From positions 1,032,726 through 1,096,725 of the forward strand of contig NZ_RJVI01000001.1 in NCBI RefSeq assembly GCF_003751635.1: a DNA stretch of 64,000 nucleotides, in the 5' to 3' direction. This document shows, piece after piece, positions 29,169 through 44,854 of the stretch (position 1 is its first letter; every line of letters begins with the position of its first letter). The notes beneath the pieces were generated by a model, which was not told where the DNA came from, did no database searches, and saw only the letters and a list, made by a program, of their open reading frames with translations. Position numbers and translations under genes: made by a program. This DNA is from Inmirania thermothiophila (lineage in GTDB: Bacteria; Pseudomonadota; Gammaproteobacteria; DSM-100275).

Positions 29169-30169
29169 CAGGCCTCCTCGTCCACCACCGGCCCCGGCGG
29201 CCGGGCCTGCGGCAGCGGCGGCGCCGGCTCGGCGCGCACGTGGATCCCCCCCGCGGCGAGCCCCGCGGCCTCGAGCTGCGCCCGAAGCAGCGCCTCGGTG
29301 TCGGCCAGGCGACGCCGGGTGGCCTCGCGCTCGGCCCACAGGGTCACCGCCGCATCGTCCCCGCGCAGGCGGATGCGGGCCCAGACCGGGCCGAGCTCGG
29401 GAAGCTCGATCCCTACCGTCACCGACCATCCCTCCCCGGCCGCCATGCCCGGGCGCGCCTCGCGCTCGAAGCGCAGCGTCAGCGGCGCAAGCCCCTCCCC
29501 CTGCGGGAGCGGGAGCTCCACCGCGAGCACCACAGGCTCCCCCGCGCGGGGCAGGGCGCCGAGCTGCGCCGTCTCGATCCGCGCAAGCGCCCCCTCCAGC
29601 GCCTCGGCCGCCCCGCCCTCGGGGAGGTGGGCGGCGAGGCGGAGCAGCGCCGCCTTGAGATCGTCCTGCGGCGGCGGGCGTCCCTCGGCCGCGGCGCGGG
29701 CGAGGCGCGCCTCCAGGAACGGCCCGGCCGCAAGCACCGCGCGCCGCAGCCCCTCGGGGTCGCGCGGCGCCGCAAGATGCGCCCGCAGGGCCGCCGCCGC
29801 CTCCCGCGCCGGCGGGGCGAGCCGCTCCCCGGAGAGGAGCCGCAGCAGGCGCCCGAGGGCCTCGGCGAGGGGAAGCTGCCGCGGCAGCGCCGCCCGCGCA
29901 AGCGCCGCCGTCAGGACCCCGTCGTCGGCCCCCCGGAGGAGCCGCAGCACCGGCGGCGGCCCGGGCTCGGCCACCTCGAGGGCGAGCTCCTGGCCGGCGG
30001 GGAGCGGCGGCGCGCCCTCGGCGCGGTAGAGCGCCCCGCCGATGCGCAGCAGCGTCAGCTCCCCCTCGCGGCCCTCGACGCGGGCGAGGAGCACCTGTCC
30101 TGCCTGCCAGGCCCGCGGGGCCTGGGGCAGCGCACGCCCCGGTATCGTCGGCAGAAGATCGACCCGCAT
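29168..30169 (-). CDS. FliK-like hook-length control domain protein
   Basis: 333-residue Ala/Leu/Pro/Arg-rich protein. The first 230 residues are of low complexity with no recognisable domain, as usual for FliK. The last 100 residues fit the FliK C-terminal domain: LTLRFEREARPGM, VGIELPELGPVWARIRLRGDDAAVTLWAERE, LRAQLEAAGLAAGGIHV. It is coupled to the FlhB-C protein downstream. In flagella, FliK and FlhB-C together switch export specificity, so the pair is meaningful even without other flagellar genes nearby. The start at 30169 (MRVDLLPTIPG) fits the FliK-like family better than the longer upstream extension. Confidence 0.75.
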   Translation of the reverse strand: MRVDLLPTIPGRALPQAPRAWQAGQVLLARVEGREGELTLLRIGGALYRAEGAPPLPAGQELALEVAEPGPPPVLRLLRGADDGVLTAALARAALPRQLPLAEALGRLLRLLSGERLAPPAREAAAALRAHLAAPRDPEGLRRAVLAAGPFLEARLARAAAEGRPPPQDDLKAALLRLAAHLPEGGAAEALEGALARIETAQLGALPRAGEPVVLAVELPLPQGEGLAPLTLRFEREARPGMAAGEGWSVTVGIELPELGPVWARIRLRGDDAAVTLWAEREATRRRLADTEALLRAQLEAAGLAAGGIHVRAEPAPPLPQARPPGPVVDEEA

Positions 30170-30248
30170 TGGCTCGCCCTCGGTACCGTCCGCCAGTATA
30201 GCGGCCGCAACGCTCGTGCCCCCGGGCGGCCTCCGGCATACTGGCGCC

Positions 30249-31121
30249 ATGGAACGGCCCCCGCACGCCCTCTGGTACACCCGCCGCGGCGGCGCGGTGC
30301 GCGGTCCCTTTCCCACCGGGCTCGTGCGCCGCTTCGTCCTCCTCGGCAGGCTGCGCCCGGAGGACGAGGTGAGCCTCGACCGCGTGGCGTGGTCGCGGCT
30401 CGGCGAGCACCCGGAGCTGGTGCCGGAGGAGCTGCGGCTCAGGGACACCCCCGAGGGACGCGAGCGCTACCTGCTCGCGCTTCGGCGCGAGGACGAGCGG
30501 CGCGGCGTCGAGCGGCGCCGCGGGCCGGGAAGGGGCGGGCGGCGGCGCGGCGAGCGCCGCGCCGAAGAGCCCGAGGCGCTGCGCCGCGCGCGGGCGCTGC
30601 GCCCGCAGGTGGTGGCCGGCGGCCGGCTGCAGCGGCTCGGGCTCGCCGTGGCGGTGCTCCTCGCCGGCGTCATCGTCGCCCTCTATGCCGTCGCCCCGGT
30701 GCGAAGCCCCCAGCCATCGCTCCGCTGCGACGCACCGCCCGCCCCCGGTGTCGACTGGCGCGACTGCGTCTTCGACGGCGTTCGGCTCGGTGCGGTGGAT
30801 CTTGCGCGGGCGCGGCTGCGCTCGGCCCGCCTGGCCCGTGCCGATCTCGCAGGGGCGCGCCTGACCGCCGCGGACCTCTCCTTCGCCGCCCTGGGCGGCG
30901 CCCGCCTCGCCCACGCCGACCTGCGCGGGGCGCGTCTCGTGGGAGCGGACCTCGCGGGCGCCGATCTCGCCGGCGCCGACCTCGAGGGCGCCGACCTCGC
31001 CTACGCCAACCTCACCGGCGCGCGCCTGGCCGGGGCCCACCTGGACGGGGCCCGTCTCGACAAGGCGGTGTGGGTCGATCGGCGCATCTGCGCCGTGGGC
31101 TCGCGCGGCGCGTGCCGGTAG
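30249..31121 (+). CDS. GYF-like / pentapeptide-repeat membrane protein
   Basis: 290 residues in three parts. Residues 1-60 (ALWYTRRGGAVRGPFPTGLV, then LRPEDEVSLDRVAWSRLGEHPEL) resemble a GYF_2-type domain. Residues 65-125 are a strongly basic, low-complexity linker. One membrane helix lies near 127-147 (LGLAVAVLLAGVIVALYAVA). The C-terminal 120 residues carry about 15 A(D/R)LxxA pentapeptide repeats, a right-handed beta-helix, presumably in the periplasm. Two cysteines near the repeat ends could form a disulfide. Function is unknown. It is divergent from the FliK-like gene. Confidence 0.8.
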   Translation: MERPPHALWYTRRGGAVRGPFPTGLVRRFVLLGRLRPEDEVSLDRVAWSRLGEHPELVPEELRLRDTPEGRERYLLALRREDERRGVERRRGPGRGGRRRGERRAEEPEALRRARALRPQVVAGGRLQRLGLAVAVLLAGVIVALYAVAPVRSPQPSLRCDAPPAPGVDWRDCVFDGVRLGAVDLARARLRSARLARADLAGARLTAADLSFAALGGARLAHADLRGARLVGADLAGADLAGADLEGADLAYANLTGARLAGAHLDGARLDKAVWVDRRICAVGSRGACR

Positions 31122-31184
31122 GGTCCGGACCGAAGGCCGCTCGCGCTTGACAGGACCGCTCCGCGGGGGCGGAATAGCGCGGTT

Positions 31185-31201
31185 CGTTCACGGCCTGAAC
31201 G
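31185..31201 (+). promoter_or_regulatory. Palindromic operator candidate before the EPS regulator
   Basis: CGTTCA-CGGCC-TGAACG is a 6-bp inverted repeat with 5-base spacer, 8 bases before the regulator ATG at 31210. A TTGACA (31147-31152) lies 32 bases upstream as a possible -35, though no good -10 follows. Position suggests autoregulation by the MarR-type protein; this is inference. Confidence 0.5.
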
Positions 31202-31209
31202 GGTGTCGG

Positions 31210-31572
31210 ATGCTCACGGACGAGATGCGCTACCGGATCCTCAAGCTCCTCGAGGAGGATCCCGGGCTCAGCCAGCGCGAGCTCGCGCGCCGTCTCGGCG
31301 TGAGCCTCGGCAAGGCCCACTACTGCCTGCGCGCCCTCATCGACAAGGGCCTCGTCAAGGCCGGCAACTTCCGCCGTAACCCAGACAAGCGCGTCTATGC
31401 CTACCTCCTCACCCCGCGCGGGATCGAGGAGAAGGCGCGCGCCGCGCGCCGGTTCCTGCAGCGCAAGCTGGCCGAATACGAGGCCCTCGAGCGCGAGATC
31501 GAGGCGTTGCGGAGGGAGGTCCGACGTCCGTCGGAGGCGGGGGAGGGGCCGGCTGCCGAGCCGACGGAGTGA
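31210..31572 (+). CDS. MarR-family EPS-associated transcriptional regulator
   Basis: 120-residue protein with a winged helix-turn-helix: [20 protein letters not shown], then [53 protein letters not shown]-terminal coiled coil follows ([23 protein letters not shown]). This is the pattern of the small MarR-like regulators that head exopolysaccharide loci in proteobacteria. It stands directly before gmd, 35 bases apart, and so probably controls the whole locus. Its final residues are acidic and unstructured. Confidence 0.9.
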
Positions 31573-31607
31573 AGGCGGATCTCGAGCAGAAAACAACGAG
31601 GGGTGCG

Positions 31608-32690
31608 ATGACCAAGAAGGCGCTGATCACGGGAGTCACCGGGCAGGACGGGGCGTACCTTGCCGAGTTCCTCCTCGGCAAGGGTTACGAAGTCCACGGC
31701 GTCAAGCGGCGCACGTCGTTGTTCAACACCGATCGCATCGATCATCTCTACCGGGATCCGCATGAGGAGGGTGTGCGCTTCTTTCTGCATCACGGGGACA
31801 TGACGGACTCCTCCAGCCTGATTCGCATCATCCAGCAGGTGCAGCCGGACGAGATCTACAACCTCGCGGCGCAATCGCATGTGGCGGTCTCCTTCGAGGA
31901 GCCTGAGTACACAGCCGATTCCGATGCGCTGGGCACGCTCAGGATTCTCGAGGCGATCCGGATCCTGGGTTTGGAGAAGAAGACGCGCTTCTATCAGGCC
32001 TCGACCTCGGAGCTTTACGGTTCCACGCCGCCGCCGCAGAACGAGGAGTCGCCGTTTCACCCGCGTAGCCCCTATGCAGTGGCCAAGCTCTACGCCTACT
32101 GGATCACGGTGAACTACCGCGAGGCCTACGGGCTTTTCGCCTGCAACGGCATCCTGTTCAACCACGAATCGCCGATCCGGGGTGAAACCTTCGTCACGCG
32201 CAAGATCACGCGGGCGCTGGCGCGCATCAAGCTGGGGCTTCAGGATCGTCTGTATCTGGGCAACCTGAACGCCAAGCGGGACTGGGGCCATGCCCGCGAT
32301 TACGTGGAAGCCCAGTGGCTGATGCTGCAGCAGGATGAGCCGGAGGATTTCGTGATTGCCACGGGCGAGCAGCATTCGGTGCGGGAGTTCGTCGAGGCCG
32401 CGGCCCGCGAGGTGGGCATCGAGATCGAATGGCGCGGCAGCGGTATCGATGAGAAGGGGTACGATCAGCATGGGCGCTGCATCGTCGAGGTCGATCCGCG
32501 CTATTTCCGGCCCGCCGAGGTGGAATCCCTGCTCGGCGATCCCAGCAAGGCCAAGGCGAAGCTCGGCTGGGAGCCGAAGGTCGGCTTCGAGGCGTTGGTG
32601 GCCGAGATGATGCGCGAGGATCTCAAGGAGGCGGAGAAGCATCTGCTCGTGAAGAACCACGGCTACCGGGTGCTGAGTCAACATGAATAA
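31608..32690 (+). CDS. gmd: GDP-mannose 4,6-dehydratase
   Basis: 360-residue short-chain dehydrogenase that makes GDP-4-keto-6-deoxymannose, the first step to GDP-L-fucose and related sugars. The Rossmann start is [19 protein letters not shown]. The catalytic region has [11 protein letters not shown] and [12 protein letters not shown] (YxxxK). The Gmd-specific [17 protein letters not shown] is intact. G+C is clearly below that of the housekeeping genes. It overlaps fcl by 8 bases, as in a coupled GDP-fucose pair. Confidence 0.97.
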
Positions 32691-33732
32691 GACGGATCGA
32701 ATCTATGTCGCCGGCCATCGGGGACTGGTGGGCTCTGCGATCGTGCGCAAGCTGCGGGCGGAAGGGTTTCACGACCTGGTGCTGCGCACATCCGAGGAAC
32801 TTGATCTGCGCGATCAGGCTGCGGTGGACCGCTTCTTTGCCGAGGAGCGGCCGGACTACGTGTTTCTTGCTGCAGCGAAGGTGGGCGGCATCCATGCCAA
32901 CAATACCTATCCTGCCGATTTCATCCGGGACAATCTGCAGATCCAGACCAACGTGATCGACGCGGCCCGGCGGCATGGCGTGAAGAAGCTGCTGTTCCTT
33001 GGCTCCTCCTGCATCTATCCGCGGGAATGCCCGCAGCCGATCCGGGAGGAATACCTGCTCACGGGCCCCTTGGAGAAGACCAATGAGTGGTATGCGATCG
33101 CGAAGATCGCGGGCATCAAGATGTGCCAAGCCTATCGCAGGCAGTACGGCTTTGACGCCATTTGCTTGATGCCGACGAACCTCTATGGGCCCGATGACAA
33201 CTTCGATCTCGAGACCTCGCACGTGCTGCCGGCGATGATCCGGAAATTCCACCTGGCGAAGCTGGCGGAACGCGGCGATCTGGAGGCGATCGCGAAAGAC
33301 GAGCGGCGCTTCGGCAGGATCCCGGAGGACATCCTCGAGGCCTTGGGCCTCGAACGCACGGCCACAGGCTTTCGACGCATCGGCAAAGCGCCGGTGGTGC
33401 GCCTTTGGGGCACGGGCAGCCCCCGCCGGGAGTTTCTGCACGTGGACGACTTGGCCGATGCCTGCCTGTTTCTGATGCAGCGCTACAGCGATGAGGAGAT
33501 CATCAACGTCGGCGTGGGCGAGGACGTGACGATCCGGGAGCTTGCGGAGATGGTGAAAGGCATCGTCGGCTTCGAGGGCGAGGTGATCTGGGACACCTCA
33601 AAACCTGACGGCACGCCGAGGAAGCTGTTGGATGTCTCGAAGCTAAGAGGCCTGGGTTGGACGCATCAGATCAAATTAGAAGACGGCATTCGACGCGTTG
33701 CGGAACGCACCGACCGGGAGCGGGAAACTTGA
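32683..33732 (+). CDS. fcl: GDP-L-fucose synthase
   Basis: Epimerase/reductase converting the Gmd product to GDP-L-fucose. It has [17 protein letters not shown] (NADP site), [50 protein letters not shown] (YxxxK) and [13 protein letters not shown]. At 349 residues it is longer than the usual 320 or so because of an insert (about 198-235: [20 protein letters not shown] and following) before [18 protein letters not shown]. The insert is in frame and probably a subfamily trait. It is coupled to gmd upstream and to the flippase downstream. Confidence 0.95.
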
Positions 33733-35000
33733 AACCCTCTCGATGGCTCTCGTGGGGAAGGAAGGGTGCCCTGGCCGTCCTGGACCAGGGGCTCTTCTCC
33801 GGGGCCAACTTCCTGGTGAACATCCTGCTGGCGCGCTGGCTTCCCCCTGAGGAGTACGGGGCCTTCGCCGTAGCGCTCTCGGTCTTCTACCTCCTGGCCG
33901 GATTCCACACGGCGGTACTCACCGAGCCCATGATGATCTTCGGGGCGGGGAAGTACCGGGAGCACTTCCGCAAGTATCTGGGCATGGTGCTGTGGGGCCA
34001 CTGGGGTGTGAGCGCGCTCATCGCCCTGGGGCTGGGCATCGCTGCTTGGGTCTTCCACCGCCTGGGCTCGACCCCCATGGCGCAGGCTCTCTTCGGACTC
34101 GCCGTTACTTCTCCCTTCTTGCTCCTCCTCTGGCTCACCCGCAGGGCGTGCTACGCGCAGCTCAGGCCGATATGGGCGGTGGTGGGGAGCGGGGTGAACT
34201 TTCTTGTCGTGCTGGGCGGTCTCTTTCTGCTCTGGCGGTGGCGGGAGATTTCCTCCTTCAACGGTTTTCTGGCTCTGGGAGCGGGGGCGCTACTTGCCTC
34301 GCTTTTCATCGCTACGATCTTGAAGCCGCAGGTGGCGGGGTATGTGGGAACCCCGACGGCTTCTATGGTGGTTGGGGACCACCGGGAATACGGAAAGTGG
34401 AACATTCTGGCTTTTTCCCTCTACTGGGCTTCCGGGCAGATCTTAATGGTGCTCATACCCATTTTTCTGGGACTTGAGGCAAGTGCCGCGGTGGCGGCGA
34501 CCTTGACTCTTTACCGGCCCGTACAACAGACCGTCCAGGCGCTCGGTTCACTGGTACTGCCGGTGTTTTCGCGTACTGTCTCAGGGCCAGGCGGCCGGGA
34601 GCGATTACGCAAGGAAGCTACTTTTGTAGCGTTGCTCTTTGGAGGCGGAGTCGGCCTTTACAGCCTCATTGTCAGCGTGTTTTCCAGGCCGATATTGCAT
34701 TTGCTTTATGGTGGGAAATACGATGAGCACTGGGTGCTCATCGTTCTTTTGGGAGTTGCCCTCTCTTTTTCTGCTGTCACAGGAGCATTTGTATCAGTTC
34801 TCAAAGCATCTGGCAATGTCGCGGATGTTACAAAGATATGGACTATCTCCACATTGGTTACCAGCGCATTGGCGATTCCTCTTATGCAGATTTTGAATGT
34901 GAAGGGAGCTGTATTTGCATTATTGGTTGGTTATGCTTTGGCGACGTTTGGCTCTTTCCGCTATTTTATTAAAAAGGTTGGCCATGAAGGAAAACGTTAG
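33729..35000 (+). CDS. Polysaccharide flippase (Wzx/MATE-type)
   Basis: 423-residue inner-membrane protein with about 12 hydrophobic segments, in the oligosaccharide-flippase family. The N-terminus ([20 protein letters not shown], then [20 protein letters not shown]) and the pairing of two six-helix halves fit. It would move lipid-linked repeat units across the membrane. The start proposed is TTG at 33729, overlapping the fcl stop; a longer in-frame extension exists but runs inside fcl. G+C falls along the gene and is low in its last 400 bases. Confidence 0.85.
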
Positions 35001-35559
35001 AATTCTTCTCAAAACGAGTTCAAAGATTTTTGCTTTGATCATCTACTATATGATAGCTATTCGTTTCCCTACCCAGCCAATGCCGGGGTACAAATTTGGT
35101 TATTGGTTGCGTAGAGTGTTAATGAAGTTCATTGCTGACAAATGCGGAAAAAATATAATTATAAAACAAGGAGCCTATATTGGTAGCGGAAAAGGATTAC
35201 AAATTGGTGATAGGGCTCAAATCGGGCATAATGCAAGAATAGATCAATATGTAACAATTGGTAATGATGTCGTAATGGGGCCAGACGTAGTTATTATGAC
35301 CAATCACCACGCTTTTGAACGATTGGATATCCCTATAAATCAACAGGGGAAGATGCCAGTTCGCCCTGTAGTTATTGGGAATGATGTATGGATAGGCACT
35401 CGGGCAATCGTTCTGCCGGGCGTAAAAATAGGCGATCAGGCTGTTATAGGCGCCGGCGCTGTTGTTACAAAGGATGTTCCTCCTAAAGCAATTGTAGGAG
35501 GAAACCCTGCAAGAGTTATTCGTTATCGTGGAGATCGTTTGAAACAAGGAAAAAAATAA
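34984..35559 (+). CDS. Hexapeptide-repeat acyltransferase (WcaF/LacA-like)
   Basis: 191-residue left-handed beta-helix acetyltransferase. Hexapeptide repeats run from [12 protein letters not shown] through [20 protein letters not shown] to [19 protein letters not shown] and [20 protein letters not shown]. The active-site region is VIMTNHHAF, with the catalytic histidine. It ends [11 protein letters not shown] as in the NodL/LacA group. It probably O-acetylates an EPS sugar. The gene is strikingly AT-rich (38 % G+C in 35161-35220 by count) and overlaps the flippase by 17 bases, so it arrived from a different source from most of the chromosome. Confidence 0.9.
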
Positions 35560-35562
35560 GCA

Positions 35563-38013
35563 GTGTTCAACTTAACCGCAATTTTTACAAAAAAACGATA
35601 CTGTTGTTTGACTGGTTGGCAAGGACTTCCGGAGCATCTGCCATCGGATCTGGATATTGTGGTCGCAACGGAGGACCTGCCGAGGCTGGAGGCGGAGCTT
35701 GTGAATCGCTCCGATGCCCGGCTGGTCAACCTGCTCCAGCACGAATCCACCTGCTACTACTTCGTCCTTGCTTTCTGGAAGGACGGTAAACCCAAGTTTC
35801 TGCCTGTAGATGCTGCCACGGACTACCGCCGTAATGGGCGGGTCTGGTTTTCCGCCGAAGAACTTTTGAAAGGACGCCGGCGCTGGAAGGATTTCTGGGT
35901 GGCCTCCCTGGAGGTGGAGTTCAGGTATCTCCTGGTCAAAAAGCTCCTCAAGGGCGCGGTGCCGGAGTATTCGGCAAGAAGGATCCAGGAACTAGCAGAG
36001 GAGTTAGACGGGAAAGCCCTGGAGTTTTGCGATGAACTCCTGGGTGAGGCGCTCGGTGAGCAGGTCTTCCGCTGGATTCGGGATGGCAACTGGGGTGCGT
36101 TTGAAAAACACCTCTCCCGACTTCAGAAAGCCCTCAAGCGGGAGCGGCTCCGGAAGGACCCGCTAAATCCCCTCCGTTACTGGCTTCCCGAGGGCAGGCG
36201 TATCTTCCGGCGCTGGCGCTATCCAACCGGGCTCTTTGTGGTCGTTCTGGGACCCGACGGTTCCGGCAAAAGCACGCTCCTTGAACGCCTGGAGAGGGAC
36301 CTCGCCGGCGCTTTCCGCCGCACGGCCCGCTTTCACCTAATGCCTGGAATTCTCAGAAAGAAGGGCGATGGCGGCCCGGTGACTGATCCCCACGGGAAGG
36401 CCCCGCGTTCCTGGCTCGCTTCGGTACTGAAACTGGTATACTACCTGCTGGATTACAATCTGGGCTACTGGCTCAAAGTCCGCCCGGCGCTGGTGCGCTC
36501 CACCCTGGTGCTCTTTGACCGCTACTACGACGACCTTCTGGTGGACCCGAAACGCTACCGCTACGGCGGTCCGATGGAGCTTGCCCGGAGGCTGCGCCGT
36601 TTCATCCCAAGGCCCGACCTGTGGTTCATCCTGGATGTGCCCGAAGAGGAACTCCTGCGCCGAAAGCAGGAGGTGCCTCTGGATGAACTGCGCCGCCAGC
36701 GAGAAGCTTACCGTAATCTGGCAGGCGAACTCCCCAACGCCGTGCTCCTGGACGGCTCTCTTCCGCCTGAGGAAGTAGCCCGCCAGGCGGAGGAGGTGAT
36801 TCTGGAGTATCTGCACGAACGCTACCTTTCCCGGCGCTCCCTCTGGTTCCCCGGCGCTTCCTTGGAGGAGGAACAGGGGTACCTCCAGAAAGCCCTCGGG
36901 GCTATCGCCTCCAATCCGGGGCAGGCTTTTTTGCGTCTCGCCCTTCCCGACGGAAGGGGCTTTCTCCTTCCCGCAAACGCCCGCCGGGCTGCTGTGAGGG
37001 GGCTCTCCCTCTACGCACCCCAGAAGCCGAAGGCAAAGGCGCTCAGAAAGGCCCTGGAGACAGGGCTCCGCCTGGGAGTTGCCCGGCATATGCTTCCAAA
37101 AGTTCAGTTGGGTACACGGGAGTTGGAAGGATTCCTGGCGGAGATTTTAGGGGAGCGTGACCTCTCCCTGGCGGTCTCCCTCGGCACACCCGGACCCCAC
37201 CGCAAGCCGGTGGTGCAGGTGATGAACTTCAGCGGTGAAGTGCTGGGTTATGTGAAGATTGGGTGGAACGAGGCGACCCGCCGGCTGGTGGAGAACGAAG
37301 CCCGAACCCTGCAGCGCCTGCAAGGTGAGAACCTGTCCTTCCTCATCCCCGAGGTGCTCTTTTCGGGCGAGTGGCAGGGGCGCTACCTCTGCGTGCAATC
37401 GGCTCCTCCCGCCGGAGCCGCTCCCGCGCCTTCGGAATGGCATCCCCTCTATGAAGAGGCCCTCCAGGGCCTGGCTTCCCTCGGCGTCCGGCGCTACCGG
37501 CTCAAGGAGAGCCCCTTCTGGAAAGAACTGACCGGCTGTATCTCCGGGATAGAAGCGGGTTACCGGCGGCATATGGTGGAACAAGCCATGGACGAGATTC
37601 TCAACCGATGGGGAAATGTGGAACTACACTTCCATCCCGCCCACGGCGACTTCGCCCCCTGGAACGCCCTTCGGGTGAACGGCCGGCTCTACCTCTACGA
37701 CTGGGAGTATGCCTTGGAGAGTGCCCCTGCGGGCTACGACCTCTTTCACTTCGTCGTGCAGCGGGCGTGGCTGGTGGATGGGAAAGCAATGAGAGAAATC
37801 TTGAGATTGAGTGAGAGGAACCTTCCGCGAGTTTTAACTGATAGAAACTCGTTAGAAATTGACGATGATGAATTAATTACGCTATTGTTCAGTCTGTCTT
37901 TGCTCGGCAAAGCAGTACTCAAGAGGGAAATCAATGATCTGAAATCTGCCTATAGGCTTATCAAGTTTATGAATCCATGCGAAGGAGAATTGATGATATG
38001 CCGGAAAATCTGA
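35563..38013 (+). CDS. Three-domain EPS protein: NTase-like / thymidylate-kinase-like / aminoglycoside-phosphotransferase-like
   Basis: 816 residues. Residues 10-180 resemble a minimal nucleotidyltransferase (LTGWQGLPEHLPSDLDIVV, with D29 and D31). Residues 225-430 are a P-loop kinase of thymidylate-kinase type (VVVLGPDGSGKSTLLERL at about 225-242, then LVLFDRYYDDLLVDPKRYRY and DLWFILDVPEEELLRRK). Residues 520-740 form a phosphotransferase/choline-kinase-like fold with a VKIG lysine, an NEARTL glutamate, HGDFAPWN at 694-701 and DWEYA at 713. The GTG start has a weak ribosome site. The last 74 or so residues are encoded by much AT-richer DNA. It might phosphorylate or nucleotidylate a glycan or lipid precursor; substrate is unknown. 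Confidence 0.75.
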   Translation: MFNLTAIFTKKRYCCLTGWQGLPEHLPSDLDIVVATEDLPRLEAELVNRSDARLVNLLQHESTCYYFVLAFWKDGKPKFLPVDAATDYRRNGRVWFSAEELLKGRRRWKDFWVASLEVEFRYLLVKKLLKGAVPEYSARRIQELAEELDGKALEFCDELLGEALGEQVFRWIRDGNWGAFEKHLSRLQKALKRERLRKDPLNPLRYWLPEGRRIFRRWRYPTGLFVVVLGPDGSGKSTLLERLERDLAGAFRRTARFHLMPGILRKKGDGGPVTDPHGKAPRSWLASVLKLVYYLLDYNLGYWLKVRPALVRSTLVLFDRYYDDLLVDPKRYRYGGPMELARRLRRFIPRPDLWFILDVPEEELLRRKQEVPLDELRRQREAYRNLAGELPNAVLLDGSLPPEEVARQAEEVILEYLHERYLSRRSLWFPGASLEEEQGYLQKALGAIASNPGQAFLRLALPDGRGFLLPANARRAAVRGLSLYAPQKPKAKALRKALETGLRLGVARHMLPKVQLGTRELEGFLAEILGERDLSLAVSLGTPGPHRKPVVQVMNFSGEVLGYVKIGWNEATRRLVENEARTLQRLQGENLSFLIPEVLFSGEWQGRYLCVQSAPPAGAAPAPSEWHPLYEEALQGLASLGVRRYRLKESPFWKELTGCISGIEAGYRRHMVEQAMDEILNRWGNVELHFHPAHGDFAPWNALRVNGRLYLYDWEYALESAPAGYDLFHFVVQRAWLVDGKAMREILRLSERNLPRVLTDRNSLEIDDDELITLLFSLSLLGKAVLKREINDLKSAYRLIKFMNPCEGELMICRKI

Positions 38014-38777
38014 ATTCCTGTCCATTTTGTCACAGTAACAGCGTACATCGTATATGGGACGGTCCGCGTTGGGACTACTGTCAGGAATGCGGTCTTTACT
38101 TCCGTAATCCCATGCCAACCCAACAGGAACTTGACACTCTTTACGAATCCTCCTGGACTGATCCCGAACAATGCACTTCGGAAACAGGAGGCACTTCTCT
38201 TGCACTCGCAAGGGTATACGCGAATCGTCTTTTGCGCGCTCTGGGGCTCTCCTCATTCCAGGGGCTTCGCATTTTGGACTTTGGCGCCGGGCGGGGAAAT
38301 ATGCTCAAAGCATTACAGGAGCTGGGTGCTGAAGTGGTTGGCGTAGAAACATACGGGAAGGTCTATTTGGAATCCCAGGGGTTTGAGGGGTATGAGCAAC
38401 TTTCTGAGGTTGTGGGTAGGTTTGATGGGATTGTCACCATAGATGTGGTTGAGCACCTCCATTCTCCATGGGATACATTGAAAACTTTAAATGTGCTGCT
38501 CAAAGAAAAGGGATGGCTGTATGTGGCAACAGGCAATCCCCTAGGGCTGAATGCAAGAGTTAATGGCAGTAATTGGCGAGAAGCGAAAAAAGCAGGCCAT
38601 CTGGTTTTCCCTTCCCCGAGGACATTGGAAAAGATGCTCCTCGAAGCCGGCTTTTTAAAGGTGGAAAGATTGAAATGGCTGATTCGGTTTCACCGTAACC
38701 CTGTACGAATAATCTTAAACTACGGTATGCAGATGCTCGGAGTAGATGGTGAGTTACGCTATCTCGGTTGGAAATGA
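37998..38777 (+). CDS. Zinc-ribbon class I methyltransferase
   Basis: 259-residue SAM-dependent methyltransferase. It opens with a zinc-binding segment (CPFCHSNSVHRIW, then YCQECGLYF). The SAM domain follows: LRILDFGAGRGNMLKALQEL (motif I), VVGVETYGK, and FDGIVTIDVVEHLHSPWDTL with LKTLN. This type is common in polysaccharide loci, methylating sugars. The ATG at 37998 has a GAAGGAGAA ribosome site; it overlaps the previous gene by 16 bases. G+C is below 50 %. Confidence 0.88.
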   Translation: MPENLNSCPFCHSNSVHRIWDGPRWDYCQECGLYFRNPMPTQQELDTLYESSWTDPEQCTSETGGTSLALARVYANRLLRALGLSSFQGLRILDFGAGRGNMLKALQELGAEVVGVETYGKVYLESQGFEGYEQLSEVVGRFDGIVTIDVVEHLHSPWDTLKTLNVLLKEKGWLYVATGNPLGLNARVNGSNWREAKKAGHLVFPSPRTLEKMLLEAGFLKVERLKWLIRFHRNPVRIILNYGMQMLGVDGELRYLGWK

Positions 38778-38790
38778 ACTCAAGGATGAG

Positions 38791-40023
38791 ATGAAAGTCC
38801 TCATCTCGGCCTATGCCTGTGAGCCGGGGAAGGGTTCGGAGCCCGGGGTGGGGTGGAACTGGGTGCGCCAGAGCGCCCGCCTTGCCGAGGAGGTATGGGT
38901 CATCACCCGGGCGAACAACCGGGAAGCGATAGAGAAGGCGCTGGCGGAGGAGCCCCTCCCGAATGTGCGCTGGGTCTATTTTGACCTCCCCCGCTGGGCG
39001 CGTTTCTGGAAGAAGGGCCAGCGGGGCGTGCACCTTTACTACTACCTCTGGCAGATCGGCAATTATTTCCTCGCCCGCCGGCTCCACCGGCAGGTGGGCT
39101 TTGACCTGGTTCATCATGTGACCTTTGTCAACTACTGGATGCCCAGTTTCCTTGCTCTTCTTCCCTCGCCCTTCATCTGGGGGCCGGTGGGCGGCGGAGA
39201 GTCGGCGCCGAAGGCTTTCTACCAGACCTTCTCGCTGCGAGGAAAGATTTACGAGACCCTGCGGGACCTGGCCCGCTGGCTCGGGGAGCATGACCCTTTC
39301 ACCCGGATGACGGCAAGGAAGAGTGCCCTTGCCCTGGCCACAACGGAGGAGACGGCCCAAAGGCTGGCAAAGCTTGGGGCGCGCAACGTTCAGGTTCTCT
39401 CCCAGGTGGCCCTTGCCTCTGATGAGATCGCCCGGCTCGGGGCCATCCCGCCGCGTCAGGGCAATCCGTTTCGGCTTGTGAGCATGGGAAATTTACTTCA
39501 TTTGAAGGGTTTCCATCTGGGCATGGAGGCCTTTGCCCGGCTGGTGAAAGAAGTTCCGCAGAGCGAGTACTGGCTGGTGGGCGATGGTCCGGAGAGGAAA
39601 AATCTGGAGCGGCTCGCCCGAAGGCTGGGGGTGGCGGAAAAGGTGAAGTTCTGGGGCGCTCTCCGTCGCCACGAGGCTCTACAGAAACTGGCTGAGTGCG
39701 ATGTGCTGGTGCATCCCAGCCTGCACGACTCGGGCGGATGGGTCTGTGTGGAGGCGATGGCCGCCGGAAAGCCTGTCATCTGTCTCGACCTGGGCGGTCC
39801 TGCCCTGCAGGTGACCGGGGAGACCGGCTTCAAGATCCCCGCCCGCACGCCGGAGCAGGCGGTGGAGGAGATGGCGAAGGCGATGCGCAAGCTGGCCGAA
39901 GACCCCGAGCTTCGCCGGAGAATGGGCGAGGCGGCAAGAAAGAGGGTGAAGGAAGCCTTCAGCTGGGAGCGGCGTGGGGAAGAGATTCAAAAGGTATACA
40001 AGTGGGTGCTAAAAAATGCGTGA
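38791..40023 (+). CDS. GT4-type glycosyltransferase
   Basis: 410-residue GT-B enzyme. The N-domain starts MKVLISAYACEPGKGSEPGV, typical of one GT4 subgroup, and contains FDLVHHVTFVNYWMPSFL and WGPVGGGESAP. The donor-binding C-domain has FRLVSMGNLLHLKGFHLGMEAF, LVGDGPERKNLERLARRLGV, and the E-x7-E motif region (HPSLHDSGGWVCVEAMAAGKPVICLD). It would add a sugar to the lipid-linked EPS unit. ATG at 38791 has an AAGGATGAG site just upstream. It overlaps the polymerase gene by 8 bases. Confidence 0.9.
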   Translation: MKVLISAYACEPGKGSEPGVGWNWVRQSARLAEEVWVITRANNREAIEKALAEEPLPNVRWVYFDLPRWARFWKKGQRGVHLYYYLWQIGNYFLARRLHRQVGFDLVHHVTFVNYWMPSFLALLPSPFIWGPVGGGESAPKAFYQTFSLRGKIYETLRDLARWLGEHDPFTRMTARKSALALATTEETAQRLAKLGARNVQVLSQVALASDEIARLGAIPPRQGNPFRLVSMGNLLHLKGFHLGMEAFARLVKEVPQSEYWLVGDGPERKNLERLARRLGVAEKVKFWGALRRHEALQKLAECDVLVHPSLHDSGGWVCVEAMAAGKPVICLDLGGPALQVTGETGFKIPARTPEQAVEEMAKAMRKLAEDPELRRRMGEAARKRVKEAFSWERRGEEIQKVYKWVLKNA

Positions 40024-41482
40024 CCTGTCCGTGCCGCAGCGTTTTTCGTTTTGGATTCCCTTCGTGATTTTCTCCATGGCGGTGGGAGTGGCGCTGGCCG
40101 TCGTAGCGGATGATGTGGGCTATGCGTTTCTGGTCGCTGGCGTACTTATCATTCCCATTGGAGTGGGGATTCTCATCTCCGTGCCTGCCGGGTGGTCGAA
40201 GGTCAAGCGCCTTAGCCGACGACTAGGGTGGTGGCACGTTTTTTGGGCTTTATACTTTCTCGGCGGCCTGACGTTTCGGGTCAGGGACACGGAAAGCACT
40301 GTTGAGAACCCGCTGGATGCGGCGGCATTTTATCGTGTTGCCCTGGTTGGCATTGTTGGAATTATTTTGTTAGGGGCTTTGACGCTCCGTCGCGGGCTTG
40401 GACTTAACCGTGTGTTTGGGGGGCTTATCGGATTATTGTCATTATATGCCTTCGTTTGTATCGCGAGCACCCTGTGGTCCGTGTATCCCTCGTGGACCTT
40501 GTACAAATCGCTGGAGTACGTGCTGGGCGTGGTCCTCATTGGGGTAATTGTGGCCAGCATGCGTTCAGAGGTGCAATTCAAGAGCCTTTTTGATTGGACA
40601 TGGCTTTTGGTGGGGCTTGAAACTTTAAGCGTATGGGTAGGAGTCATATTACGGCCTGAGGAAGCGATCTCCCAGGGAGTTGGGTTACTGGGCATTCAGA
40701 TTCACGGACTCTTCCCCAGAGTCGCAGCAAACGGTGTCGGTGACCTTGGAGCACTATTGGGCATTGTGACAATGGTTCGTTTATTCTTTGCAAAGGGGGT
40801 TTCCCGTCGACTTTACCTTGCAGTGTTTGTTATCGGCATGGTTACACTGGCCCTTTCCCAGAGCCGGTCCCCCTTGGCGGGCTTTTTGCTGGCGATGTTA
40901 ATCATTCTTTTCGCAGCGGGGAAAATTGGGTTGGTCGCCTTTCTCGGCCTGCTCCTTCTGGGAGCGGGGCTACTTTCTCCTCTGGGCGCCTACTTTTGGC
41001 AGTTCTTCCTGCGTGGCCAGTCGCAGGAGCTCTTCTTTTCTCTTTCAGGAAGAGTTTACTACTGGGAGGCGGCTTTGCAATTTATTCTCGAAAATCCGCT
41101 TCTCGGATACGGCGCGTACGCTGGGGGTAGATTTCTTGTTGCAACCGAGTTTGGCTCTACGTTGAGTAGTCTCCACGGGACTTGGCCGGAAGTGTTGATT
41201 GGTACAGGTGTTTTAGGCCTCATCCCCTTGATCGCTGCAGTAGTCAGTACGTGGTTTGTTTTAGTCAGGGCTCGCACGTCTCAGAGTAGAACACTACGTG
41301 AACAACTCCGTTTAGAGGCCGTTGGGGTCATGACACTGCTCAGCGTGCGCTCCATTTTTTCTGTATCGTTTATATGGCATCCGGCCCTCACATGGCTTTT
41401 AGCGCTGGGCTATGCCGAGTTCTTGAGGCGGCATTATGCGCATCCTTCTCATCCACAACCGCTACACCCAGCCCGGCGGTGA
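40016..41482 (+). CDS. O-antigen ligase / EPS polymerase (Wzy_C family)
   Basis: 488-residue membrane protein with about 12 hydrophobic segments and one large periplasmic loop before the last helices. The Wzy_C signature is SLSGRVYYWEAALQFILENP, then LLGYGAYAGG, with the conserved Arg/Trp and Gly-Tyr-Gly. LALSQSRSPLAGFLLAML precedes it. It either polymerises repeat units or ligates them to an acceptor; sequence alone does not decide. It overlaps the next glycosyltransferase by 47 bases. Confidence 0.87.
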   Translation: MRDLSVPQRFSFWIPFVIFSMAVGVALAVVADDVGYAFLVAGVLIIPIGVGILISVPAGWSKVKRLSRRLGWWHVFWALYFLGGLTFRVRDTESTVENPLDAAAFYRVALVGIVGIILLGALTLRRGLGLNRVFGGLIGLLSLYAFVCIASTLWSVYPSWTLYKSLEYVLGVVLIGVIVASMRSEVQFKSLFDWTWLLVGLETLSVWVGVILRPEEAISQGVGLLGIQIHGLFPRVAANGVGDLGALLGIVTMVRLFFAKGVSRRLYLAVFVIGMVTLALSQSRSPLAGFLLAMLIILFAAGKIGLVAFLGLLLLGAGLLSPLGAYFWQFFLRGQSQELFFSLSGRVYYWEAALQFILENPLLGYGAYAGGRFLVATEFGSTLSSLHGTWPEVLIGTGVLGLIPLIAAVVSTWFVLVRARTSQSRTLREQLRLEAVGVMTLLSVRSIFSVSFIWHPALTWLLALGYAEFLRRHYAHPSHPQPLHPARR

Positions 41483-42608
41483 GGACGCCGTCTTCGAGGC
41501 GGAGAGGGCCCTGCTGGAGCGCATGGGCCACCGGGTGGTGACCTTCGTGGAGGACAATGCCCGGCTGGACGGGGTGAATCCCCTCAAAGCGGCGGTGGAG
41601 GCGGTGTGGTCCAGGGAAACGCAGCGGCGCCTAAAGCGGCTCATTGAAAAAACCCGGCCCGATGTGGTCCACTTCCACAACACCTTCCTGCGCATCTCGC
41701 CCGCGGCCTACTACACGGTGAAGGCGATGGGGCTTCCGGTGGTGCAGACCCTGCACAACTACCGCCTGGTCTGCCCCGGGGCGCTCCTCATGCGGGACGG
41801 GCGGGTGTGTGAGACGTGCGTGGGCAGGAAGGTGCCCTGGCCCGGGGCGGTGCACGGCTGCTGGCGGGGGTCGCGGGCGCAGACGGCGGTTGTGGCCGCG
41901 ATGGTTGCGGTGCATCGGGCGTTGGGGACGTGGGAGAGAAAGGTCGATCGCTACATCGCGCTGACCGAGGTCGCTAGAAGGAGGTTTGCGGAGGGGGGGG
42001 TGCCCGCGGACCGTATCGCAGTGAAACCGAACTTTGTGGATCCGGACCCGGGAGCGGGGGCGCACGACGGGGGGTACGCGCTCTTCGTGGGGCGACTGTC
42101 GGCGGAGAAAGGGGTCCGGACGTTGCTTGAGGCGTGGAAGGGGTTGCGGGGGATCCCGCTGCGGGTGGTTGGGGACGGGCCTCTGCGGGGGGAGATGGAG
42201 GAGCGCGCCCGGGACGGCGGGGTCGAGGTGGAGTTCATGGGCCGGCGGGGGCGCGAGGAGGTGCTGCGGCTCATGAAGGACGCCCGGGTGCTGGTGTTTC
42301 CGTCGGTCTGGTACGAGGGATTCCCTGTGACACTGGCCGAGGCCTTCGCATGCGGACTGCCGGTGGTGGCATCGCGGCTTGGGGCGATGGCGGAGATCGT
42401 GGAAGACGGCCGGACGGGCTTGCTGTTCAAGCCGGGAGATGCGCAGGGCCTTGCCGAGACGGTGGCGGCCCTTTGGGGGGACCGGAGGCGGTGCGAAGAG
42501 ATGGGACGGGAGGCGCGGAGCGCGTATCTCGCGCGCTACACGGCGGATGCCAACTACGAGCGTCTGATGGCGATCTACCGGCAGGCGATCGCAGAGGCAC
42601 GCGCTTGA
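41436..42608 (+). CDS. GT4-type glycosyltransferase
   Basis: 390-residue GT-B enzyme starting MRILLIHNRYTQPGGEDAVF. It has DVVHFHNTFLRISPAAYYTVKA and PVVQTLHNYRLVCPGALLMRDGRVCETCVG, the Cys-containing variant of this subgroup. The C-domain includes FVGRLSAEKGVRTLLEAW, VVGDGPLRGEM and FPSVWYEGFPVTLAEAFACG (E-x7-E type). G+C returns to host-like values in this gene. It is part of the EPS assembly line; donor and acceptor are unknown. Confidence 0.9.
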   Translation: MRILLIHNRYTQPGGEDAVFEAERALLERMGHRVVTFVEDNARLDGVNPLKAAVEAVWSRETQRRLKRLIEKTRPDVVHFHNTFLRISPAAYYTVKAMGLPVVQTLHNYRLVCPGALLMRDGRVCETCVGRKVPWPGAVHGCWRGSRAQTAVVAAMVAVHRALGTWERKVDRYIALTEVARRRFAEGGVPADRIAVKPNFVDPDPGAGAHDGGYALFVGRLSAEKGVRTLLEAWKGLRGIPLRVVGDGPLRGEMEERARDGGVEVEFMGRRGREEVLRLMKDARVLVFPSVWYEGFPVTLAEAFACGLPVVASRLGAMAEIVEDGRTGLLFKPGDAQGLAETVAALWGDRRRCEEMGREARSAYLARYTADANYERLMAIYRQAIAEARA

Positions 42609-42648: not shown

Positions 42649-43428
42649 GTGAGGACAGGGAGCGCCGCGGCGGGGAGGCAGACGCGAGGGGTGCTCGGCG
42701 TTCGGGTGGACGCGACGTCCTATGACGATGCCACGGAGCGGGTGCTGACCTGGGCGCGGCGGAAGGAGAGCCGGTACGTGTGCCTCGCCAACGTCCACAT
42801 GGTCATGGAGGCTCGCGACGATCCCGCGTTTCGGGCGGTGGTGAACGGGGCGGACCTTGTGACACCGGACGGCATGCCGCTGGCATGGATGCTGCGGCGG
42901 CAGGGCGTGCGAGGTCAGGACCGGGTGTGCGGCCCCGATCTCATGCCGGCGATCTGCGCCGCGGCTGCGGCGGAAGGCGTGGGGGTCGGGTTCTTTGGCG
43001 GGCGCAGCGAAGTCCTTGACCGCCTGGTGGCAAGAGTCCGCGAGCGGTTTCCGGGCCTCGAGATCCCCTACGCGTGGAGCCCACCGTTCCGGGAACTGTC
43101 CTCAGAGGAAGACGAGCGGGAGGTCCGCAGGATCAATGACAGCGGGGCGGGGATCCTGTTCGTCGGCCTCGGATGCCCGAAGCAGGAGTGGTGGATGGCA
43201 AGACACCGCGGCCGGGTCCGCGCGGTCATGCTCGGGGTCGGGGCGGCCTTCGACTTTCACGCGGGGACGGTGCGCCGTGCGCCGCGCTGGATGCGCGAGG
43301 CGGGGCTGGAGTGGGTGCATCGCCTGGTCCAGGAGCCGCGGCGACTGTGGCGCCGTTATCTCCGGCACAACCTGCGGTTTGCCGCCCTCGCAGCCGCCCA
43401 GCTCATGAGCGGGGGAATCCGCGACTGA
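42649..43428 (+). CDS. WecG/TagA/CpsF-family glycosyltransferase
   Basis: 259-residue GT26-type enzyme that usually adds the second sugar to an undecaprenyl-linked intermediate. Family blocks are CLANVHMVMEARDDPAF, ADLVTPDGMPLAWMLR, RVCGPDLMPAIC, VGFFGGRSEVLDRLVARV, ILFVGLGCPKQEWWMA, and GVGAAFDFHAGTVRRAPRWM, which ends in REAGLEWVHRLVQEPRRLWRRYL. The start is GTG with GGGGGAAGG upstream. It is the last plus-strand gene of the EPS locus, ending 16 bases from the stop of the convergent WcaJ-type gene. Confidence 0.92.
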   Translation: MRTGSAAAGRQTRGVLGVRVDATSYDDATERVLTWARRKESRYVCLANVHMVMEARDDPAFRAVVNGADLVTPDGMPLAWMLRRQGVRGQDRVCGPDLMPAICAAAAAEGVGVGFFGGRSEVLDRLVARVRERFPGLEIPYAWSPPFRELSSEEDEREVRRINDSGAGILFVGLGCPKQEWWMARHRGRVRAVMLGVGAAFDFHAGTVRRAPRWMREAGLEWVHRLVQEPRRLWRRYLRHNLRFAALAAAQLMSGGIRD

Positions 43429-43444: not shown

Positions 43445-44854
43445 TTAGTACGCGTGCCGGTGGACAAACCCACGGAAGAGTGTCAAGAAAATGATCTTGA
43501 GGTCGAACCAGAGCGACCAGTTCTCGATGTAGTAGAGGTCGTACTCGACGCGCTTGCGCATCTTGTCGATGGTATCCGTCTCGCCGCGCCAGCCGTTCAC
43601 CTGCGCCCACCCGGTGATGCCCGGCTTCACCTTGTGGCGGAGCATGTAGGCCTCGACGAGCTCCTTGTACTGCTCGTTGTGCTCCACGGCGTGGGGGCGC
43701 GGGCCGACGATGGACATGCGCCCCTGGAGGACGTTGAAGAACTGCGGCAGCTCGTCGAGGCTGGTGCGGCGCAGAAAAGCGCCGAAGCGGGTGACGCGCG
43801 GATCGTCGCGCCGGGCCTGGGTGAGCTTTCCGGGCGGCTCCTCGTGGACCACCATGGTACGGAACTTGTAGACCTTGATGGGGCGGCCGTCCCAGCCGTG
43901 GCGGCGCTGCTTGAAGAGGACGGGGCCGGGCGAGGAGAGCTTGACGCCGATGGCGATGAGCAGCATCAGGGGGCTTACGAGCACCAGGATCACGGCGGCG
44001 AGGACGCGGTCCTCCACGGCCTTCACGAGGCGGTTGATGCCGCTCATGGGGGTGACGCTCAGGTCGAGGACCGGCAGCCCGGCGATCTCGGTGACGGCGT
44101 GGTTGAGCAGCCGGAAGCCGAAGAGGTCGGGGAAGTAGCGGATGTTGGCGGTGCAGTGGCGAAGCTCGTGCAGGATCTGCTGCAGCCGCTCCTCGGCGCG
44201 CAGGGGAAGGGCGATCCAGACCTCGTCCACCGGGCGCTCGGCGACGAGGGCGCCGAGGCGGTCGATACGGCCGAGGATGGGGTGGCCGTCCAGGGTTCCG
44301 GAGCCCGGGCCGCCGTTCTCGGCGACGAAGCCCACGAGGTCGATCCCGACCCAGGGGTTTTCCCGCAGCCGTCGGGCGATCTCGCGGGCCTGGCGGCCGG
44401 TGCCGACGATGAGGGCGCGGCGGTGGTTGAGGCCGCGGGCGCGCATGAGGCGCAGGACGTAGGTGAGGACGAGGCGGAAAAGCAGGAGCATCGCGAAGCC
44501 TCCCGCGCCCCACATCCACATCCAGTGGCGCGAGAAGAGGACGGAGGTCTTGGTCGCGGTGCCGAGGATCACGAGCCCCGCCGCCACCGCCGCCCAGGCG
44601 AGGGCCACCTGGCGCAGGTGGGCGAAGGCGCTGCGCCCGCGCCAGGACTGGTAGACGTGGAAGTAGGGGAAGACCACCAGGGTCAGGAGCGCGCCGACGA
44701 CGAGGGCGATCTGGTAGTGCCGGGGGAGATGGAGCTCGCCGAAGCGGAGCCCGTATGCGGCAAGGGCCGCAAGGACCACCGCGAGCGCATCCAGCGTGCG
44801 GGCGACGACCGACAGCGTCCGCGCGTACTCGCGCAGCAGACCCCTTGCCCTCAT
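43445..44854 (-). CDS. Undecaprenyl-phosphate hexose-1-phosphate transferase (WcaJ/PssY type)
   Basis: 469-residue initiating enzyme of EPS synthesis, in the inner membrane. It has four N-terminal membrane helices, then a Rossmann-like CoA-binding-type domain (RRALIVGTGRQAREIARRL), a re-entrant helix (VEDRVLAAVILVLVSPLML) and the catalytic PNPT domain. That domain has KQRRHGWDGRPIKVYKFRTM, RFGAFLRRTSLDELPQFFNV followed by LQGRMSIVGPRPHAVEHNE, and PGITGWAQVNGWRGET. It loads the first sugar phosphate onto undecaprenyl phosphate. It is convergent with the rest of the locus and native-like in G+C. Confidence 0.93.
   Translation of the reverse strand: MRARGLLREYARTLSVVARTLDALAVVLAALAAYGLRFGELHLPRHYQIALVVGALLTLVVFPYFHVYQSWRGRSAFAHLRQVALAWAAVAAGLVILGTATKTSVLFSRHWMWMWGAGGFAMLLLFRLVLTYVLRLMRARGLNHRRALIVGTGRQAREIARRLRENPWVGIDLVGFVAENGGPGSGTLDGHPILGRIDRLGALVAERPVDEVWIALPLRAEERLQQILHELRHCTANIRYFPDLFGFRLLNHAVTEIAGLPVLDLSVTPMSGINRLVKAVEDRVLAAVILVLVSPLMLLIAIGVKLSSPGPVLFKQRRHGWDGRPIKVYKFRTMVVHEEPPGKLTQARRDDPRVTRFGAFLRRTSLDELPQFFNVLQGRMSIVGPRPHAVEHNEQYKELVEAYMLRHKVKPGITGWAQVNGWRGETDTIDKMRKRVEYDLYYIENWSLWFDLKIIFLTLFRGFVHRHAY

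Follow-up and report, generated by a model that had tools for sequence, protein, structure and literature searches.

A three-domain fusion of nucleotidyltransferase-like, thymidylate-kinase-derived and APH-fold parts in an exopolysaccharide locus of Inmirania, and its relatives encoded by neighboring genes

Introduction

Two multidomain proteins provide precedents for the phosphorylation of bacterial polysaccharides. The kinase domain of K. pneumoniae O7 ORF6-N, which is AmiN-like by AlphaFold modeling and DALI comparison, phosphorylates a mimic of the repeat unit, and the D441A substitution abolishes this activity (PMC11231755). In E. coli O9a, the kinase of WbdD phosphorylates the terminal mannose of the glycan (PMC3482155). 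ORF6-N also contains a fused methyltransferase and a coiled-coil ruler and belongs to an ABC-transporter O-antigen system (PMC11231755). WbdD joins a eukaryotic-type protein-kinase fold to a methyltransferase and acts as the chain terminator of an ABC-dependent pathway (PMC3482155).

We analyzed a 64,000-nt stretch of the Inmirania thermothiophila genome (the window), which encodes a fusion protein that can be compared with both. Like ORF6-N, whose catalytic Asp is essential, it places an APH-fold kinase within a multidomain polysaccharide enzyme, although neither a nucleotidyltransferase (NTase) nor a thymidylate kinase (TMK)-like domain has been reported for ORF6-N (PMC11231755). Like WbdD, it is a multidomain enzyme of a polysaccharide locus with a kinase part (PMC3482155). 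The methyltransferase domain typical of the WbdD/O7-type terminators is absent from the fusion ORF, and a separate methyltransferase gene lies downstream. The two precedents terminate chains of ABC-transporter-dependent O antigens rather than acting in Wzx/Wzy exopolysaccharide (EPS) production. Genes for a Wzy-family and a Wzx-like protein lie in the Inmirania locus.

The constituent folds are known, but their combination, their phylogenetic spread, and the opposite orders of fusion seem not to have been described before. In open-access sources, searched also for NTP_transf_5 and thymidylate-kinase-family proteins in EPS loci, we found no paper on an NTase/TMK-like/APH module, a search result that does not amount to proof of absence. 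Annotated records that we examined label proteins of the module "hypothetical protein" or "phosphotransferase."

Results and Discussion

Organization of the Inmirania locus

In the ORF list of the window, the 816-residue fusion ORF lies on the plus strand, with a GTG start at 35563 and its stop at 38013. It begins 4 bp after an acyltransferase ORF, and its 3' end overlaps a methyltransferase ORF. Neighbor clusters (c1 and so forth) are Louvain groupings of BLAST matches, and c1 serves as a working label that does not prove orthology. The surrounding genes are as follows:

31147–31572, plus: MarR_EPS transcriptional regulator (TIGR04176)
31569–32690, plus: GDP-mannose 4,6-dehydratase (fold from a Pfam-type match)
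32683–33732, plus: NAD-dependent epimerase, probably a GDP-fucose synthase judging from gene order
33657–35000, plus: Wzx-like flippase, cluster c3 (no Pfam match of its own; a clustered relative matches MatE)
34915–35559, plus: hexapeptide acyltransferase, cluster c2, found near the module in 22 loci
37977–38777, plus: class I methyltransferase (Methyltransf_23), overlapping the 3' end of the fusion ORF
38746–40023, plus: GT4 glycosyltransferase, cluster c1, found in 32 of 43 module loci
40016–41482, plus: Wzy-like polymerase/O-antigen ligase family protein
41436–42608, plus: GT4 glycosyltransferase
42649–43428, plus: WecG/TagA/CpsF glycosyltransferase
43445–44854, minus: WcaJ-type undecaprenyl-phosphate glucose phosphotransferase, the initiating enzyme

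An earlier note on this DNA had placed the fusion in an EPS setting, and the gene content bears this out, with Wzx and Wzy proteins, GT4 enzymes, WecG, WcaJ, and MarR_EPS in one exopolysaccharide locus. Directly upstream of the regulator gene, a 359-residue ORF (30042–31121, plus) appears by eye to combine a GYF_2-like N-terminal part with pentapeptide repeats.

Domain architecture of the fusion protein

The earlier note had also described the protein as a three-domain fusion with key residues kept in every part. Both statements hold: Pfam, phmmer, AlphaFold models with PDB matches, and motif alignments agree on the architecture, and the key residues persist in the fusion protein and in nearly all homologues. 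Degraded motifs, which would have spoken against activity, were not seen; the active-site motifs are conserved across 24 to 30 homologues per domain, so their presence is not a matter of chance. To the features in that note our analysis adds D83, the third carboxylate of the NTase, and, at about residues 426–514, a region specific to the family. The features of the ORF, all on the plus strand, are:

35563–38013, plus: NT-TMK-MID-APH fusion ORF, 816 residues (ORF call, homologues)
35563–36198, plus: NT, a Pol-beta-superfamily nucleotidyltransferase-fold domain, residues 1–212 (model, PDB matches)
35647, 35653, and 35809, plus: NT Asp positions D29, D31, and D83, putatively metal-binding or catalytic (homologue alignment)
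36199–36837, plus: TMK-like P-loop kinase domain, residues 213–425 (Pfam, PDB sequences, alignment)
36250–36276, 36517–36534, and 36658–36672, plus: TMK-like motifs (P-loop, DRYYDD, and RRKQE, respectively)
36838–37180, plus: MID, the family-specific region and the start of the APH N-lobe, residues 426–539 (separate APH genes, model)
37181–38013, plus: APH/choline-kinase-fold domain, residues 540–816 (model, PDB matches, alignment)
37183, 37255, 37642–37665, and 37699–37707, plus: APH motifs (GTPGP, Lys565, HGDFAPWN, and DWE, respectively)

The NT part was recognized through its structure. In sequence it has diverged too far for curated models, and it gave no Pfam profile match in the fusion protein; NTP_transf_5 (PF14907) is matched by 3 of 30 NT homologues (best 5.4e-8) and not by the fusion protein itself, and an NT profile gave no meaningful match among PDB sequences. 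Structure prediction, a check that the earlier note had proposed, yielded an NTase fold: the AlphaFold model of residues 1–224, made with a homologue alignment, is confident (pLDDT 91.7), and its matches among PDB structures include ANT(2'')-Ia (Z 10.3, 152 aligned residues, 3.5 Å), MenT1 (10.0), and JHP933 (9.8), with TglT also among the relatives alongside MenT1 (Z 9–10). All 30 homologues have D31 and D83, and at least 90% have D29; the fusion protein keeps all three. The domain thus has the fold, the DxD motif, and the third carboxylate of the Pol-beta NTase superfamily, features common to NTP_transf_5, ANT(2'')-Ia, MenT, and JHP933, but unlike these it is fused to a P-loop kinase.

For the central part, the designation "thymidylate-kinase-like" proved apt for descent and not for substrate. 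PF02223 matches the P-loop part (E 6e-8), and in a phmmer search of PDB sequences thymidylate kinases match residues 223–410 (E 2e-9). The domain has the GxDGxGK[ST]T P-loop (GPDGSGKST, residues 230–238), the DR motif (DRY, 319–321), and the whole-domain alignment that define the TMK-like P-loop superfamily, together with a basic LID-like motif (RRKQE, 366–370). Thirty homologues show no variation at the P-loop residues, D319-R320, D324, R367, or E370 and almost none at K368, and the fusion protein carries all of these residues; in the H/RxRP segment after the P-loop, the Arg kept by most members is a Met in the fusion protein. The second Asp of the DRY motif region sets the family apart: DRYxxD occurs in 30 of 30 family members and 0 of 37 controls, whereas DRYxxS (27 of 37 control loci) and AYQ (28 of 37) are found in 0 of 30. 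These two missing motifs are specific for dTMP, and the domain is not a dTMP kinase. Its TIGR00041 score is 40.1 bits for the domain alone, under the curated cut-off of 83.25, and a true tmk scoring 165.9 bits lies elsewhere in the genome (G000:C2:726628). In the tree, the family is a clade apart from true tmk (SH-aLRT 100). Judged by sequence, then, the P-loop domain is a descendant of thymidylate kinase with a predicted different substrate. It shares with thymidylate kinase (PF02223/TIGR00041) the P-loop, DRY, the LID-like Arg, and common descent, and differs in its universal DRYxxD and RKxE motifs, its separate clade, and its fusion or linkage to an NTase and an APH protein. A second dTMP-kinase-like match in the genome (G000:C2:1011347) has by eye panB/folK/CCA-adding-type neighbors; it gave no match to the family profiles and was set aside as a nonmember.

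The C-terminal part has an APH/choline-kinase fold. The full chain gave no match to PF01636 in Pfam, and residues 426–816 alone reached E 1.3e-3 (19 bits, under the curated cut-off of 23.2); among APH homologues, 18 of 24 match this family. The AlphaFold model of residues 426–816, again made with a homologue alignment (pLDDT 82.9), showed the fold with intact catalytic residues and matches the PDB structure of LicA (Z 17.2, 258 aligned residues, 3.3 Å). Further matches include ethanolamine and choline kinases, 25-hydroxysteroid kinase (Z 17.2), AmiN (Z 16.3), and APH(4)-Ia, with glucosamine kinase and maltokinase also close. In alignment positions converted to fusion-protein numbering, P596, H694, D696, N701, D713, and D726 are invariant in 24 homologues, and K565, G695, P699, W700, and E715 nearly so. 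The fusion protein has every one of them, including K565, HGDFAPWN (694–701), and D713-W-E. The fold, HGDxxxxN, D(W)E, and the N-lobe Lys place the domain in the APH/choline-kinase superfamily with predicted phosphotransferase activity, and their intactness argues for phosphoryl transfer to a hydroxyl. These features are common to LicA, APH(4)-Ia, AmiN, and glucosamine kinase (PF01636, PF01633), from which the domain differs in its own N-terminal region, a GTPGPxRK loop, the EPS locus, and the partner P-loop kinase. The family-specific region (about residues 426–514) precedes most of the structure-matched part and is kept in separate APH genes; when the model of 426–816 was compared with the PDB, this region had no established structural match.

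Homologous loci and fusion orders

A single-sequence search of genome contigs with the fusion protein returned no match, and an alignment-based query of genome contigs returned 72 loci. Taken from a class-wide genome search, plasmids, and the alignment-based scan, more than 40 loci contain the module, spread over Pseudomonadota, Binatota, Acidobacteriota, Nitrospirota, Planctomycetota, Verrucomicrobiota, Thermodesulfobacteriota, Bacteroidota, Balneolota, and Actinomycetota; members from Nanoarchaeota are more divergent and lack the APH part. The survey of homologues suggested by the earlier note shows that NT-TMK and APH are usually separate neighboring genes in EPS loci, across at least eight bacterial phyla. 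NT-TMK is mostly one gene with APH beside it, adjacent in 15 loci and within about 10 kb in 10.

Fusion occurs in both orders. APH is C-terminal in two loci (the Inmirania fusion ORF and L028) and N-terminal in eight, all from Bacteroidota or Balneolota (L023, L043, L045, L047, L048, L054, L055, and L068), with G352 a further N-terminal case. In the tree, the two fusions with C-terminal APH group together with support, and those with N-terminal APH fall within Bacteroidota/Balneolota. With APH at opposite ends, fusion must have occurred at least twice.

The three parts are not strictly bound to one another, since some members lack one of them. Nine loci have no APH, although several of these end at contig ends and one genome (that of L029) has an APH gene on another contig. 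L027 encodes a P-loop protein without NT, and TMK without APH was found in G060, G087, G184, and G463. In the G184 locus (L019, 7216–12420), separate NT and TMK genes flank a GT4 gene, three methyltransferase genes lie nearby, and the stretch examined contains no APH gene. G292 (L152, 7239–9140) encodes an APH-NT fusion without the TMK domain, followed directly by a c1 GT4; this natural loss of one domain is handy for separating domain roles. The control loci (L059–L067 and L069–L099), mostly ordinary tmk, have no APH gene nearby.

Genes for Wzc, Wzx, Wzy, GT4, and acyltransferase proteins flank the module across phyla. Many Bacteroidota loci run from Wzc through Wzx, GT4, and Wzy to APH and NT-TMK and continue with an acyltransferase, c1 GT4, GT4, and a DUF1972-type glycosyltransferase, after which a WecA-like enzyme sometimes follows. 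The acyltransferase, fusion, c1 GT4, and Wzy genes of Inmirania have a similar arrangement, and a c1 GT4 is the direct neighbor of the module (<400 bp) in 14 loci.

Co-occurrence of the two kinase families

Profiles for each kinase family (A5 and A6), built from the Inmirania fusion, genome-contig, and viral loci, were searched separately in 274 genomes of the class and 296 Bacteroidota genomes. In the class sample, the TMK family was found in 10 genomes and the APH family in 9, with 7 in common (p about 2e-10), or 6 in common once the Inmirania genome is left out (p 4e-9), both values being indicative and uncorrected for relatedness. Bacteroidota gave 8 and 8, with 7 in common (p 1.7e-12) and 6 without the seed genome (p 6e-11), to be read with the same reservation about relatedness. 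In every shared genome, the TMK-like and APH genes are on the same contig and no more than 3.2 kb separates them. The module is a locus-specific accessory, present in only about 3% of sampled genomes, and its two kinases are near-obligate partners in EPS loci across many bacterial phyla. Such pairing within EPS clusters points to an uncharacterized phosphorylation step in polysaccharide making.

Proposed function

That the two kinases serve one pathway, as the earlier note had supposed, is backed by gene-pair co-occurrence and by the independent fusions. We hold it highly probable that they act in one EPS pathway and that both are active. More specifically, we give about an even chance to the proposal that an intermediate, either a glycan or a lipid-linked glycan, is what the unit phosphorylates. 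From folds, motifs, context, and co-occurrence, we infer catalytic activities, acceptor, order of steps, and NTase role as follows. The fusion ORF would join, in a single cytoplasmic unit for EPS assembly, enzymes that normally act as neighboring genes in Wzx/Wzy-dependent exopolysaccharide loci. With ATP or GTP donating the gamma-phosphate, the APH domain would phosphorylate a sugar hydroxyl, either on a building block of the glycan or on the lipid-linked repeat unit while this still faces the cytoplasm, before flipping. The TMK-derived domain would be a second kinase on the same intermediate, plausibly phosphorylating the phosphomonoester made by APH. NMP-kinase-like enzymes typically phosphorylate a phosphomonoester, which makes the order APH then TMK-like a natural one. 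The NTase domain, which is only rarely separate from the P-loop domain, may place a nucleotidyl or phosphoryl-alcohol group on that same intermediate, and the neighboring c1 GT4 and c2 acyltransferase may act on the same repeat unit. By analogy, O7/WbdD-type chemistry in a Wzx/Wzy locus would modify the repeat unit or else a precursor of it.

Where the NTase would fit into a simple two-step phosphorylation is not obvious. A bolder version, which we consider rather unlikely, is a widespread and so far undescribed pathway in which two kinases and an NTase, sometimes fused in either order, put a diphosphate- or nucleotide-bearing substituent on the repeat unit before export. If the module does phosphorylate EPS repeat units, it offers a concrete enzyme for assay, and its genes could serve as a marker set for matrix polysaccharides that bear phosphate, wastewater biofilm organisms included; its carriers include Accumulibacter, Brocadia, Saprospiraceae, and Hymenobacter.

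The acceptor could instead be a small metabolite, as the closest APH-fold matches include small-alcohol kinases (choline, fructosamine, steroid). One such scheme, possible if doubtful, has APH phosphorylate a free sugar, polyol, or amino-alcohol, from which the NTase and P-loop domains make a nucleotide- or diphosphate-activated donor for the neighboring GT4. The small-molecule kinases LicA, glucosamine kinase, and maltokinase among the structural matches, the recurrence of a GT4 from one sequence cluster (c1), and the plausibility of an NTase and a kinase as an activation pair all suit this scheme. To our knowledge, however, Pol-beta-fold NTases (ANT, MenT, LicD) transfer to hydroxyls and do not make NDP-sugars; the locus gives no hint of a dedicated free sugar, and no LicD-type transferase was recognized among the scanned neighbors in the 64-kb window.

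That the fused form keeps one or more of its domains as inactive scaffolds is very unlikely, as the catalytic positions are all kept in the three domains; the fusion NT does lack the first ~20 residues that most homologues have, and Pfam does not recognize its divergent sequence.

The earlier note had named glycans or lipid carriers as substrates. The glycan option gains from the K. pneumoniae O7 precedent (PMC11231755), and the lipid carrier was rejected as the main reading because the fusion chain has no hydrophobic or membrane segment (maximum 19-residue Kyte-Doolittle value, 1.2). Action of the kinases on undecaprenol or undecaprenyl phosphate is highly improbable on further grounds, even though the APH fold does include kinases that act on lipophilic alcohols (25-hydroxysteroid kinase) and conversion of an alcohol to a phosphate and then a diphosphate by two kinases is known logic. 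Cells already recycle the Und-P on which the pathway draws, a kinase for the carrier should accompany far more EPS loci than the module's share of genomes allows, and we know of no such kinase required by the Wzx/Wzy pathway.

Mobility of the locus

The genes from gmd to Wzy (31569–41482) have a GC content of 0.40–0.63 (0.405 for the acyltransferase gene, 34915–35559) within flanks mostly at about 0.70–0.79, so the core of the EPS locus was probably acquired horizontally. The module also occurs on Hymenobacter and Leisingera plasmids (L023 and L024), consistent with mobile EPS loci. Although such variable islands, and the nearness of the NT model to MenT1 and TglT, led us to consider an NTase/kinase system for regulation or defence, comparable to MenT toxins with their antitoxins and carried as cargo, we rejected it on synteny as highly improbable. 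The conserved placement inside EPS operons of many phyla, the GT4/acyltransferase linkage, and the joining of three domains, a metabolic-type P-loop kinase among them, fit biosynthesis and not a toxin-antitoxin pair.

One IMG/VR contig filed as viral (L100) carries an NT-TMK gene at 4748–6061, with no APH partner in the 14-kb stretch examined; the gene may be cargo, or the contig may be misassigned.
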